Translations under genes and position numbers: made by a program
NCBI RefSeq assembly: GCF_016613535.2
Contig: NZ_CP071518.1
Location: 2,418,001 to 2,482,000 of the forward strand
Direction of reading: 5' to 3'
Length of the DNA stretch: 64,000 nt
DNA from: Lysobacter solisilvae
GTDB lineage: Bacteria > Pseudomonadota > Gammaproteobacteria > Xanthomonadales > Xanthomonadaceae
In this document: piece after piece, positions 426 through 29,036 of the stretch
How positions within the stretch are numbered: position 1 is the stretch's first letter
How the letters are laid out: each line of letters opens with the position of its first letter
The notes under the pieces: generated by a model
The model's input: the letters and a program-made list of their open reading frames with translations, nothing else
The model's database searches: none
What the model was told of the DNA's origin: nothing

Positions 426-2780
426 TCAGGGCCGCAGCCGCAACACATGCTCCGGCGGACCCGGCAGGAACGGCGTCGGCCTTCCGTGCACCCAGTCGTC
501 ATGGCCCGCGCCCCAGTACGGCGACATCGGGTGCCCGCTCTGGCCGCCCGGCATGTGGATGAAGCCATCGGCTTCGCGCCCCGGAGAAACGACCATGCGT
601 TCGGATGCGCCGAAATCCGGGTGCTGCACGCGCGGCATCGAAGCGTCACCGGCCAGCGGTTCGAAGGGCATGCACAAGGCAGGCTTGAGGAAGCCGGGCA
701 GGGCACGCGACAGCGGGTGGCAGATGCGCGCGGTGTTCTGCTCGCCCCAGCTGCGCTGCGCCAGCGGGCCGATGGCTTCCAGGTCGCCGCGCACCTGTGC
801 CGCCGCATCCTCGAACAACGCGTTCCAGCTCGCAAAGCGCGGCGGCAGCAGGTGCGCGGGACGCTGGGTGACCATCGGCCAGATGAAGCCTTCCTGCTGC
901 GGCAGCCCCGGCATCTCGAAATCCTTGTCCAGCGCGGCGCGCGCCGGCCCGGTCAGGCCATCGACCACGCGCGTGTGCACCGCCAGCCGCCATGCGCGCG
1001 TCAGCCGATAGCTCACCGAATCCGGGCTGGCGCGTTCGGGCCGCGTTGCAGCGGCCGCGGCGAGCGCGCTGAGCGCGTCGGATCTGGCGACGCGCGCGCG
1101 ATCGTGGAGCAACTGCCACCACGGCTGGAGGAACAGCGCGCGGTCGTCCAGCTGCACGGCCAGCAGGTCGCGTTCGTCGAGGAATTTCTTCGCGAACAGG
1201 TCGTCGCGGATCTGCTTCGCGCGCGCGCCCAGGACGGCGCCCCCATCGCCGGCCAGGTCGAGGATCTCGTCGCCGACCACCCGGTTGTTGCCCGTCCACA
1301 GGCGCCCGCGCGTGGGCTGGAGCAGGGGCGCGCGCGATGTGCTGATCGGCCAGGGTCCGCAGGCGGTGCCGGTCGGAGCGGTCTCGACGGGAAGCTGCCC
1401 GTCGCATCCGGCTGCGCGTTGCGGGATCGGTCCGAGCCAGCGCCAGCCGATTGCGCCGTGGCGGTCGGCCAGCAGCATGTTCTGGGTTGGAATGGCCACG
1501 CGACGGGTGATCTCCACCGCGCTGGCCAGCGTGGATGCGTGGGCCATTTCGCCCAGGCCGACGTTGAGCGCCCCGGGCAGATGCGCGACCCAGCGCAGCG
1601 ACAACGCGCGGCCCTGCGCATCGCGGCCGATCACCGGGCCCCAGGCGGTTTCGTCGACGTCCATCGGCACAGGCGCGGCGCCGGCCACGACGATCGTTTC
1701 GCGGTGGCGCGTGGCCGGCACGCAGCCTGCCGTGGCGCGCTCGCCGCAGACGTCCTGCAAGGCCCAGTCCATCGTGTCGATGTAACTGTTCGTATACGCC
1801 CAGGCGACGTGGCCGTTGCTGCCGACCACCACGAACGGCAGGCCGGGCAGGGTGAAGCCGCCCATGTCGACGCGGCCGCCCGGCGCCTGGTCGTCGGCAT
1901 AGCGCAACTGCGCGCGGAACCACAGGTTGGGGGCGCGCAGGCCCAGGTGCATGTCGTCGGCGACGATCGCCCGGCCATCGCGCGTGGCCTCGCCGGAGAC
2001 GGCGAAGTTGTTGCTGCCGACGATGCGCGGGGCGGGCAGCGCGTCACCGGGATCCTTCGGGCTGGGAAGGCGGCGCAGGTCGACTTCTTCGGCGGTGGGC
2101 AGGCGCGCATCGCCGCGCACAGGGCCGGTCAACGGCGCATCCCACTGGCTGCCGTCGTGGGTCAGCAGCGCATAGAGCGGGGGCGGCAGGTGCGGGCGCA
2201 TCTTCCACAACGCCAGTTCACGTGCGTTCTCGCCGTCCTGCAGGTCGAAGTACATCGCGAAGGCCACCAGCGCAGAGTCCTCGAGCTGCCAGGGCTCGGG
2301 TTGCGTTCGCAGCAGCAGGTAGGGCCAGGGGCGCGTGCGCAGTCCGGCCAGACCCGCGTTGACGCCGTCGACATAGGCCTGCATCGACGCACGGTGCTGG
2401 CCCAGGATCGTGTCCATGCCATCGTGGACCCGCGCGCGGAAACGGTGCACGCGGTGCCGGCGATCGGTGTCCACCGCCAGCGGACCGAACAGTTCGGCCA
2501 GCTCGCCCGCCGCCGTGCGGCGCAGCAGGTCCATCTCGAAATAGCGCTCCTGCGCATGGACGTAACCCAGCGCGCGCATCGCGTCGGCCTCGTTGGCGGC
2601 CTGCACGGTGACCACGCCGCGGTGGTCGCGTTCAAGGGCGACCGGGGCGGACAGGCCGGACAGGGCGAGCTCGCCCTCGAGCGTCGGCAGGCTGCCGCGC
2701 ATCAGCCACCAGCCCACGAGCATCGCGGCCAGCACCAGCAGCACCAGGCCCAGCAGGCCGCGTCTGATCCACTTGCTCAT
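426..2780 (-). CDS. Penicillin acylase family Ntn-hydrolase, membrane-anchored
   Basis: This 784-residue protein belongs to the penicillin/acyl-homoserine-lactone acylase family, periplasmic amidases that cleave themselves into alpha and beta chains. Residues ~5-27 form an uncleaved-looking hydrophobic anchor after a basic start (MSKWIRRGLLGLVLLVLAAM). The motif GSNNFAVSG places the predicted N-terminal nucleophile of the beta chain at Ser256; DDMHLGLRAPNLWF just after it is also typical. The start at 2780 is chosen because GGGGGAGGA precedes it at good spacing, and the frame upstream of it is low-value sequence. The real substrate cannot be told from sequence: beta-lactams, N-acyl amino acids and AHLs are all possible for this family. 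It is divergent from the asnB leader region. Confidence 0.9.
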   Translation of the reverse strand: MSKWIRRGLLGLVLLVLAAMLVGWWLMRGSLPTLEGELALSGLSAPVALERDHRGVVTVQAANEADAMRALGYVHAQERYFEMDLLRRTAAGELAELFGPLAVDTDRRHRVHRFRARVHDGMDTILGQHRASMQAYVDGVNAGLAGLRTRPWPYLLLRTQPEPWQLEDSALVAFAMYFDLQDGENARELALWKMRPHLPPPLYALLTHDGSQWDAPLTGPVRGDARLPTAEEVDLRRLPSPKDPGDALPAPRIVGSNNFAVSGEATRDGRAIVADDMHLGLRAPNLWFRAQLRYADDQAPGGRVDMGGFTLPGLPFVVVGSNGHVAWAYTNSYIDTMDWALQDVCGERATAGCVPATRHRETIVVAGAAPVPMDVDETAWGPVIGRDAQGRALSLRWVAHLPGALNVGLGEMAHASTLASAVEITRRVAIPTQNMLLADRHGAIGWRWLGPIPQRAAGCDGQLPVETAPTGTACGPWPISTSRAPLLQPTRGRLWTGNNRVVGDEILDLAGDGGAVLGARAKQIRDDLFAKKFLDERDLLAVQLDDRALFLQPWWQLLHDRARVARSDALSALAAAAATRPERASPDSVSYRLTRAWRLAVHTRVVDGLTGPARAALDKDFEMPGLPQQEGFIWPMVTQRPAHLLPPRFASWNALFEDAAAQVRGDLEAIGPLAQRSWGEQNTARICHPLSRALPGFLKPALCMPFEPLAGDASMPRVQHPDFGASERMVVSPGREADGFIHMPGGQSGHPMSPYWGAGHDDWVHGRPTPFLPGPPEHVLRLRP

Positions 2781-2897
2781 GATGTCCTCCCCCGGGCCTG
2801 CGAGCTTAGCCGATGCCGTCCGCGCGGCCGATGCCGGGAGGCCCTGATGCATTCCAGTCGTTTGACAAACCCGCCGGGCCTGAAGGAGGATCGGGTC

Positions 2898-3017
2898 ATG
2901 CCCCACACCCCGGCCATCGCCCTGCTGATCTCCACCGCCCTGCGCGGTCGGGCGTCCGTGGCCGCCGTCAGCAATAACAACCGCAATAACGCCAGCCTCC
3001 CGCGGGCCGGCGATTAG
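2898..3017 (+). CDS. Asparagine-rich leader peptide of asnB
   Basis: A 39-codon ORF starts at ATG 2898, 7 nt after a strong ribosome site (AAGGAGGA). It ends at TAG 3015-3017, 28 nt before a perfect hairpin and about 120 nt before asnB. Residues 26-31 read NNNRNN: five Asn codons (2973-2981 and 2985-2990) in six. The enrichment, position and structure match an amino-acid-sensing leader peptide in which a ribosome stalls when charged tRNA-Asn is scarce. The frame also stays open upstream to an ATG at 2847, but that start has no visible ribosome site. The peptide itself probably has no function once made. Confidence 0.75.
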   Translation: MPHTPAIALLISTALRGRASVAAVSNNNRNNASLPRAGD

Positions 3018-3080
3018 CGCGCGCAACACACGCCCTATTCGCTCACGAAGCCCGCGCCGAAAGCGCGGGCTTCGTCGTTT
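2999..3080 (+). promoter_or_regulatory. Transcription attenuator upstream of asnB
   Basis: Three mutually exclusive segments are visible. CGCGGGC at 3001-3007 can pair with GCCCGCG at 3050-3056 (antiterminator). The same 3050-3056 segment is the left arm of the terminator that pairs with 3064-3075. A ribosome stalled on the Asn codons (2973-2990) would leave 3001-3007 free and allow the antiterminator; a ribosome reaching the stop codon at 3015 would cover it and allow termination. This is the classical his/trp-type logic applied to asparagine, inferred from sequence only. Confidence 0.7.
3045..3080 (+). terminator. Terminator hairpin of the asnB attenuator
   Basis: A perfect 13-bp stem runs from 3045-3057 (ACGAAGCCCGCGC) to 3063-3075, with a 5-nt loop CGAAA. 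It is followed by CGTTTC, a weak U-tract. It sits between the Asn leader peptide and asnB. Confidence 0.7.
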
Positions 3081-3139
3081 CTGGCTGTCGAAAGTCCACC
3101 CGGCCCCTTTCCAGTCCGCCATCCACCAGGAGTTCCACC

Positions 3140-4850
3140 ATGTGTTCCATCTTCGGCATGTTCGGCCTGCAGGCCGGCGACGATCTCCACAGCCTGCGCC
3201 GCCGCGCGCTCGAACTATCCCAGCGTCAGCGCCATCGCGGCCCCGACTGGAGCGGTGTCCACGTCGACGCCGGCGCGATCCTCGTGCACGAGCGGCTGGC
3301 CATCGTCGATCCGGCCGGCGGTTCGCAGCCGCTGCGGTCGGCCGACGGGCAACTGGTGCTGGCCGTCAACGGCGAGATCTACAACCACCGCGAACTGGAA
3401 AAGCAGCTGGCCGCGCCCTATGCGTTCCAGACCGGCTCGGACTGCGAGGTGATCAACGCGCTGTACGCGCAGCGGCCGGGCATCGGCGACTGGCTCACCG
3501 AGCTCAATGGCATCTTCGCCTTCGCACTGTGGGACGCCGCCGCCGGCCGGGTGGTGATCGCGCGCGACCCGCTTGGCGTGTGTCCGCTCTACTGGGGCCA
3601 CGACGCTGACGGCCGCCTGTGCGTGGCGTCGGAAATGAAGGCCCTCGCCGATGTGTGCGCCGACGTCGCGCAGTTCCCGCCGGGGCACTACTACGACAGC
3701 GCTTCCACCGCCGGCAAGGACGCCGGGCTGGTGCGCTATTACGACCGGCCCTGGCGCGATCACGCGTCCACGCAGGGCGTGGAGGTGGGGCTGGACGAAC
3801 TGCGCCAGGCCTTCGAGCGCGCGGTGCACCGCCAGTTGATGAGCGACGTCCCCTATGGCGTGCTGCTGTCGGGCGGTCTGGATTCATCGCTGGTCGCCGC
3901 CGTCGCCGCGCGTTACGCGCGCCGGCGCGTGGAGGAGGACGACCAGGCCGAAGCCTGGTGGCCGCGCCTGCATTCCTTCGCCATCGGACTGGACGGCTCG
4001 CCCGATCTCGCCGCGGCCGAGGTGGCCGCCCCAGGCACTGGGCACGGTGCACCACGGTTTCACCTACACCTTCGACGAGGGGCTGGATGCATTGCCCGAG
4101 GTCATCCGCCACATCGAGACCTTCGACGTCACCACCATCCGTGCCTCGACGCCGATGTTCCTGCTGGCGCGGCGGATCAAGGCGATGGGAGTGAAGATGG
4201 TGCTGTCGGGCGAAGGCAGCGACGAGGTGTTCGGCGGTTACCTCTATTTCCACAAGGCGCCCAACGCGCGTGAGTTCCACGAGGAGACGATCCGCAAGCT
4301 CGATGCGCTGCACAGCTACGACTGCCTGCGGGCGAACAAGTCGATGATGGCCTGGGGCGTGGAGCCGCGCGTGCCATTCCTCGACGTGGAGTTCCTCGAA
4401 GTGGCGATGCGCATGGATGCGAAGTACAAGATGGCCGGCCGGCAGCAGGACGGCACCCACCGGATGGAGAAGGCCATCCTGCGCGAGGCCTTCGCCGGCT
4501 ACCTCCCCGACTCGATCCTGTGGCGGCAGAAGGAACAGTTCAGCGACGGCGTCGGCTACGGCTGGATCGACGGGCTCAAGGCGCACGCGCAGCAGCAGGT
4601 CAGCGACCGGGTCTTCGCCGCGGCGGCCAACCGGTTCCCGCTGAACCCGCCGCAGACCAGGGAGGCCTACCTGTATCGCCACATCTTCGAGCAGTTCTTT
4701 CCCGGGGCGGCCTGCGCGCAGACGGTGCCGGGGGGCAAGTCGATCGCCTGTTCCTCCCCCGCCGCCATCGCCTGGGACGCGGCATTCGCCACGGCGGCCG
4801 ACCCCTCGGGGCGGGCGGTGGCAGGGGTACACCAGGCGGCACTGGCGTAG
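3140..4850 (+). CDS. asnB: Asparagine synthase B (glutamine-hydrolysing), with an apparent frameshift
   Basis: AsnB makes asparagine from aspartate, ATP and glutamine. The N-terminus is MCSIFGMFG, so Cys2 is the glutaminase nucleophile of the class-II amidotransferase domain (residues ~2-200). The ATP-binding SGGLDSS motif is at residues 244-250, and [12 protein letters not shown] follows in the synthase domain. The frame is broken: up to ~4028 translation runs in one frame, and from ~4033 the conserved continuation [14 protein letters not shown] lies in the +1 frame. Removing one C from the CCCC run at 4029-4032 restores a 569-residue protein close to the usual ~554, with no residues lost relative to the family as I recall it. 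The call is therefore one gene with a one-base insertion, probably a sequence error. The start ATG follows CACCAGGAGTTCCACC. Confidence 0.88.
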
Positions 4851-28970: not shown

Positions 28971-29036
28971 GCGCAGGGACGACCCTGCCGCCTCATCGGA
29001 TTCCGGGGACGACCCCGCTCTCATGGGAGCGCGGAC
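28971..29036 (+). promoter_or_regulatory. Guanidine-II (mini-ykkC) riboswitch
   Basis: Two hairpins with identical ACGA loops stand in front of the SMR exporter gene: GCAGGG-ACGA-CCCTGC (28973-28988) and CGGGG-ACGA-CCCCG (29004-29017). Paired hairpins with ACGR loops are the defining feature of the guanidine-II class. CGCTC at 29016-29020 can pair with GAGCG at 29027-29031, which covers part of the ribosome site GGGAG (29025-29029). Because that stem shares bases with the second hairpin, guanidinium binding would free the ribosome site and turn translation on. Confidence 0.85.

Follow-up and report, generated by a model that had tools for sequence, protein, structure and literature searches.

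Given that the asnB gene of Lysobacter solisilvae is preceded by a short open reading frame (ORF) with a run of Asn codons and then by a hairpin, it is reasonable to ask whether these elements form a switch for asparagine synthesis. Leader-peptide transcription attenuators are known for the trp, his, thr, leu, ilv, and phe operons. The initial annotation of the window (the whole stretch of 64,000 nucleotides that was analyzed) read the region upstream of asnB as a leader-peptide attenuator that responds to Asn, and this reading is now well supported by the presence and spacing of its parts and by the conservation and covariation that these show. On the basis of these sequence comparisons, we consider it very probable that the region acts as a ribosome-mediated transcription attenuator in which the level of charged tRNA-Asn sets asnB transcription. 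The features are collected in Table 1.

Table 1. Positions of the asnB attenuator elements and of neighboring genes in the window.
Feature	Position	Strand	Remarks
Penicillin amidase family gene (PF01804)	426-2780	-	Divergent; intergenic region common with the attenuator
-35 box, TTGACA	2862-2867	+	From aligned relatives; no call by the generic promoter scan
Weak -10-like element, GAGGAT	2886-2891	+	Ends 7 nt 5′ of the leader ATG; predicted +1 position at 2898
Leader peptide ORF	2898-3017	+	39 codons, MPHTPAIALLISTALRGRASVAAVSNNNRNNASLPRAGD, then stop; probably on a leaderless mRNA
Regulatory codons NNNRNN (AAT AAC AAC CGC AAT AAC)	2973-2990	+	
Antiterminator segment 2, CGCGGGC	3001-3007	+	Within the codons for LPRAG; begins 10 nt past the last Asn codon
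Intrinsic terminator	3045-3075	+	Left arm 3045-3057, loop 3058-3062 (5 nt), right arm 3063-3075
asnB, glutamine-hydrolysing asparagine synthase B	3140-4850	+	NCBIfam NF006949; frameshifted near 4020-4040

The individual parts are located where they had been proposed. The 39-codon ORF and its NNNRNN stretch, in which five of six codons specify Asn, are present as described, and the 13-bp terminator hairpin (-26.4 kcal/mol) is followed by asnB. The tail after this hairpin is a weak U-tract (CGTTTCTGG). Segment 2 was said to be identical to part of the right arm of the terminator and able to pair with nucleotides 3050-3056, and both statements hold, with a predicted energy of -15.8 kcal/mol for the pairing. 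Nucleotides 3050-3056 are common to the left arm of the terminator and to the antiterminator. Furthermore, the pattern AAYAAYAAYNNNAAYAAY occurs a single time in the 3,933,292 bases of the whole genome, exactly at the leader, and a reversed control pattern gives zero matches.

Relatives were gathered from an asnB scan of named genomes, which yielded at least 80 loci, and from a family-wide search, which detected the gene in 183 of 198 genomes and added 60 more upstream stretches; the loci from these two sources partly come from identical genomes. After identical regions were merged, the set comprised 127 distinct regions, with the window included. The 31 loci L049 and L052-L081 were left out of this set, as were two from the genome itself (L001 and L082), two paralogue pieces (L085 and L086), the negative loci L002, L029, and L096, and L117, which was removed. 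An Asn-rich ORF is present in at least 127 distinct asnB upstream regions (window counted), each with a terminator 19 to 36 nt beyond the ORF stop, and a hairpin with a T-rich tail is predicted in 127 of 127 regions. Hairpin and asnB are at no fixed spacing and lie 25 to 283 nt apart in the same regions. An automatic rule for an Asn-rich leader plus a terminator is passed by 47 of the 50 best-matching loci from named genomes (L002-L051), by 87 of 89 further loci of the family, and by the window, whereas only two pass among 139 reverse complements and none among 139 shuffled sequences. L175-L177 fail this rule solely because their terminator loop is longer than allowed, and the terminator is visible when these sequences are read.

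The alignment of relatives proposed as a check reveals the expected pattern: the Asn run is kept, and the N-terminal part of the peptide differs in length and sequence. Among 119 distinct leaders, which range from 20 to 48 amino acids, Asn accounts for 18.7% of in-frame codons compared to 0.1 to 0.2% in the other frames. The same leaders contain 721 AAY codons versus 11 AAR codons. These counts indicate that selection acts on Asn, and only in the leader frame, rather than on AAN sequence as such. A separate observation concerns codon choice, wherein AAT makes up 335 of 721 Asn codons (46%) in the leaders versus 32 of 226 (14%) in the first 1100 nt of asnB from 46 loci. This excess of AAT perhaps reflects slower decoding or a lower G+C content within the run.

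The antiterminator pairing is also retained in most relatives. The five pairs between a segment near the leader end and the core of the left arm can all form in 117 of 127 regions; with one shuffle of each region, the number falls to 20 of 127. This control is given because the best offset for segment 2 was chosen for each row. Duplex energies for segment 2 average -17.70 with the left arm from the same region and -15.06 with the left arms of others. The same-region mean is reached in 0 of 10,000 permutations, in a test that ignores the relatedness of the rows. When each leader is compared with its own shuffles, 71 of 127 give p ≤ 0.05. For the window alone, segment 2 pairs no better than do shuffled versions of its own GC-rich sequence (p = 0.22).

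Covariation in both stems had been suggested as a check, and the antiterminator pairing does contain a covarying pair. Nine regions have a leader that ends in PQAGD rather than the usual Arg form, and all nine combine an A in segment 2 with a T in the left arm. In the remaining 118 regions the left arm carries C, opposite G in 117 and opposite T in one. The right arm of the terminator retains G in seven of the nine A-T regions, and therefore the change in the left arm tracks segment 2 and not the base with which it pairs in the terminator. When the A-T label is placed on an asnB tree of 39 rows, six changes are needed, counting gains and losses alike, three of which are forced by well-supported branches. 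The paired change could have moved together with asnB by transfer of the whole unit. As judged from these alignments, the repeated swap of G-C for A-U, which joins an Arg-to-Gln codon change in the leader to a matching change in the left arm, amounts to a compensatory test of the antiterminator carried out by nature.

The geometry of the region is consistent with control by a translating ribosome. The median distance from the last Asn codon to the start of segment 2 is 9 nt, and that from the end of segment 2 to the stop codon is 6 nt. Under the assumption that a ribosome covers 10 nt beyond the A-site codon, folds with a stall at the first Asn codon contain the antiterminator in 123 of 127 regions, folds with a stall at the last Asn codon contain it in 112 of 127, and folds with the ribosome at the stop codon contain the terminator in 127 of 127. 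The initial annotation had placed the antiterminator where an Asn-stalled ribosome would expose segment 2, and the two stalled states bear this out. A search for a protector (1:2) hairpin found pairing between the 5′ part of the leader and segment 2 to be at chance level (median z of 0.01 for 95 leaders; a further 24 leaders have fewer than 24 nt before the Asn run). Protector hairpins are a feature of the classical trp and his leaders, and we do not treat them as required for the attenuator class.

Where the transcript begins determines how the leader is translated. A TTG is located 31 to 42 nt 5′ of the leader ATG for 121 of 127 leaders, at 35 to 36 nt in 112 of those 121; the other six lack such a TTG, or lack an ATG in the stretch examined. 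When 120 distinct rows are aligned on the ATG, T is found in 71% at position -7, A in 71% at -11, and C in 97% at -1. Start codons were picked by the presence of a TTG 31 to 42 nt upstream (nine leaders have several candidates), and hence the TTG itself is a selected feature, whereas its clustering at 35 to 36 nt, the -10 bases, and the C at -1 are unselected. The -10-like element reads CAGGAT, TACGGT, TAGGGT, and others in relatives. The conserved bases 5′ of the leader ATG look like a promoter that would start transcription at the A of the ATG, not like a ribosome site, and the leader transcript is probably leaderless. The trpL leader of Sinorhizobium meliloti, an alphaproteobacterium, senses Trp. 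According to passages of PMC7298713, its transcript starts with the leader ATG. For the asnB attenuator, a 5′ end at the start codon of the leader ORF, like that of trpL/rnTrpL, is a prediction from the aligned boxes.

It is also conceivable, though unlikely, that the same attenuator operates with a leader translated from a Shine-Dalgarno site (AAGGAGG, 2883-2889) in an ordinary 5′ untranslated region. The initial annotation had claimed a strong ribosome site, and the window indeed carries this 7-nt match at good spacing, but conservation of the site does not hold: a match of at least 5 nt is found in only 6 of 120 distinct leaders, compared to 77 of 115 asnB starts. Matches do not exceed 4 nt in the other 114 leaders, and a single leader has 7 nt. 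The weakness of the -10-like element favors the Shine-Dalgarno account, as does a generic scan of positions 2400-3500 that called no promoter (nor did it call this terminator), whereas the conserved bases fit -35 and -10 boxes positioned for a start at the ATG. With a start at the leader ATG, where such boxes would place it, the AAGGAGG of the window would be left untranscribed.

Taking the leaderless start as the preferred reading, the following series of events can be proposed. RNA polymerase would begin transcription at the leader ATG or within a very short distance of it, and the leaderless transcript would be loaded directly by a ribosome. When Asn-tRNA is ample, the ribosome would pass the Asn codons, reach the stop codon, and cover segment 2, whereupon the two arms of the terminator (3045-3057 and 3063-3075) would pair and transcription would end before asnB. 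In contrast, when Asn-tRNA is scarce, the ribosome would stall on the Asn codons and segment 2 would stay free to pair with 3050-3056, which would preclude the terminator and permit asnB to be transcribed. An asnS match above the cut-off is present in 188 of 196 genomes of the family (E = 2.3e-187 in the genome examined here), and thus charging of tRNA-Asn can depend on free asparagine. Because a protector hairpin is undetected, transcripts without a ribosome should read through. On balance we lean toward a widely kept, leaderless, two-hairpin Asn attenuator that lacks a protector and reads through by default when it is not translated. If this is true, tRNA-Asn charging and leader initiation would jointly switch asnB.

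Three other explanations for these elements deserve consideration. The AAY run might be an RNA motif rather than a run of codons, for example a repeat of the Hfq type, which consists of A-R-N units. The AAC and AAT triplets are compatible with such a repeat; however, AAR Lys codons would fit equally and yet are nearly absent, and the run keeps to the reading frame of the leader and is interrupted by other codons. We rejected the Hfq motif on the Asn/Lys codon ratio, and an RNA motif of any such kind appears very improbable. Scarcely credible is the notion that the ORF arose by chance in GC-rich DNA and that the hairpin is simply a terminator belonging to some other gene. It is true that the frame of the leader ORF is open back to position 447, but no Pfam family matches the long plus-strand frame leading into the leader, and conservation, frame specificity, and the controls described above oppose this idea. 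Moreover, the upstream neighbor is divergent, and so there is no upstream gene that needs this terminator.

A third explanation, which we view as improbable, is that a product of the leader, either the peptide or the RNA that ends at the terminator, acts in trans, besides attenuation or instead of it. There is precedent for such an arrangement, since passages of PMC7298713 describe trans roles for the peptide and RNA products (peTrpL/rnTrpL) of the S. meliloti trpL leader. The C-terminus of the asnB leader is conserved within clades, as might be expected of a functional peptide, but this conserved end coincides with antiterminator segment 2, and peptide length (20 to 48 amino acids) and N-terminal sequence are variable.

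The arrangement recurs in many related bacteria. Leaders with terminators are present in loci from Lysobacteraceae and Rhodanobacteraceae, and L175-L177 and L178-L179, two groups that lie deeper in the family, carry the leader as well. It is absent in 12 of 17 family loci with deeper asnB types (L180-L191), among which L182 and L190 lack the Asn run. In addition, L117 (genome G005) has an asnB gene without a leader within 420 nt upstream. Two well-matching contigs without a leader are labeled Holophagales (L002) and Rhodococcus (L029). Further exceptions are L049, on a contig labeled Deltaproteobacteria, and L096, which lies at a contig end with almost no upstream sequence. The longest distance observed between terminator end and asnB, 283 nt, belongs to L139 (genome G027), in which both leader and terminator are present.

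Outside this group, the automatic rule fails in 29 of 30 other asnB loci (L052-L081) among the matches listed. The one that passes, L054 from the AT-rich Glaciecola, has no convincing terminator after its Asn ORF on reading, and we judged it to be a chance match. Among 29 loci of the class taken from the best rows (L205-L233), which are mostly distant asnB-like paralogues and hence a weak test, only L205 passes, and this locus belongs to the family; L210 and L219 were examined for Asn alone. In 19 family genomes with a weak asnB match or none, a search for Asn leaders before other genes returned 41 matches to NN.NN, a pattern that recovers just 49 of 127 known leaders and is therefore a weak control. 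None of the 30 such loci that were read combines a near stop codon with a hairpin, and six have a hairpin-like site 42 to 472 codons past the match.

T-box riboswitches bind tRNA directly, without translation, and some control asparagine genes. The proposed switch resembles them in that tRNA-Asn charging is read to control asparagine genes, but it would use a translated leader where a T-box binds the tRNA itself; the region has no Rfam match to a T-box. The attenuators of the trp, his, thr, leu, ilv, and phe operons are similar in that they too have a short ORF in which codons for the pathway product follow one another, an intrinsic terminator, a competing antiterminator, and a pathway gene downstream. 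The asnB region differs from them in that Asn is sensed, asnB is the target, no protector is detected, and the transcript is predicted to be leaderless. Rfam models for amino-acid leaders score below their gathering thresholds (Thr_leader with 22.4 bits versus 55, and Leu_leader with 19.3 versus 50). Neither Rfam nor NCBIfam has a family for the leader of the window, and relatives of a 43-amino-acid leader, where named, are annotated as “hypothetical protein.”

The initial annotation was aware of no described Asn leader for asnB, and likewise we found no Asn leader or asnB attenuation among the open-licence PMC papers searched; earlier mention in subscription papers is possible. According to passages of PMC1262725, actinobacterial trp, ilv, leuS, and cys leader peptides were predicted by a like comparison, and a term search of its main text returns no asparagine. 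No asparagine leader is mentioned in main-text passages of PMC2965389, PMC5864092, PMC11282234, PMC12421871, and PMC9413887, nor in those from the first 300,000 characters of PMC5009743. Xanthomonas AsnB2 is found in a table of sRNAs in PMC3771888, and the term “leader peptide” does not occur there. The region would represent a new specificity, for Asn, of a known mechanism, and asparagine would join the amino acids that are sensed through leader-peptide attenuation. This would also supply a rationale for asnB regulation in Xanthomonas, Stenotrophomonas, Lysobacter, Rhodanobacter, and relatives. Moreover, the attenuator is very small and probably leaderless, and its minimal parts should be accessible to testing.

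In the window itself, asnB differs from the genes of six relatives by one base in length at 4020-4040, and this difference breaks the reading frame in this assembly. The frameshift is either a sequencing error or a real loss, and what the switch now regulates here may be a defective gene. Elsewhere in the window, a Guanidine-II riboswitch aptamer scores above the gathering threshold at positions 28971-29017 on the plus strand.
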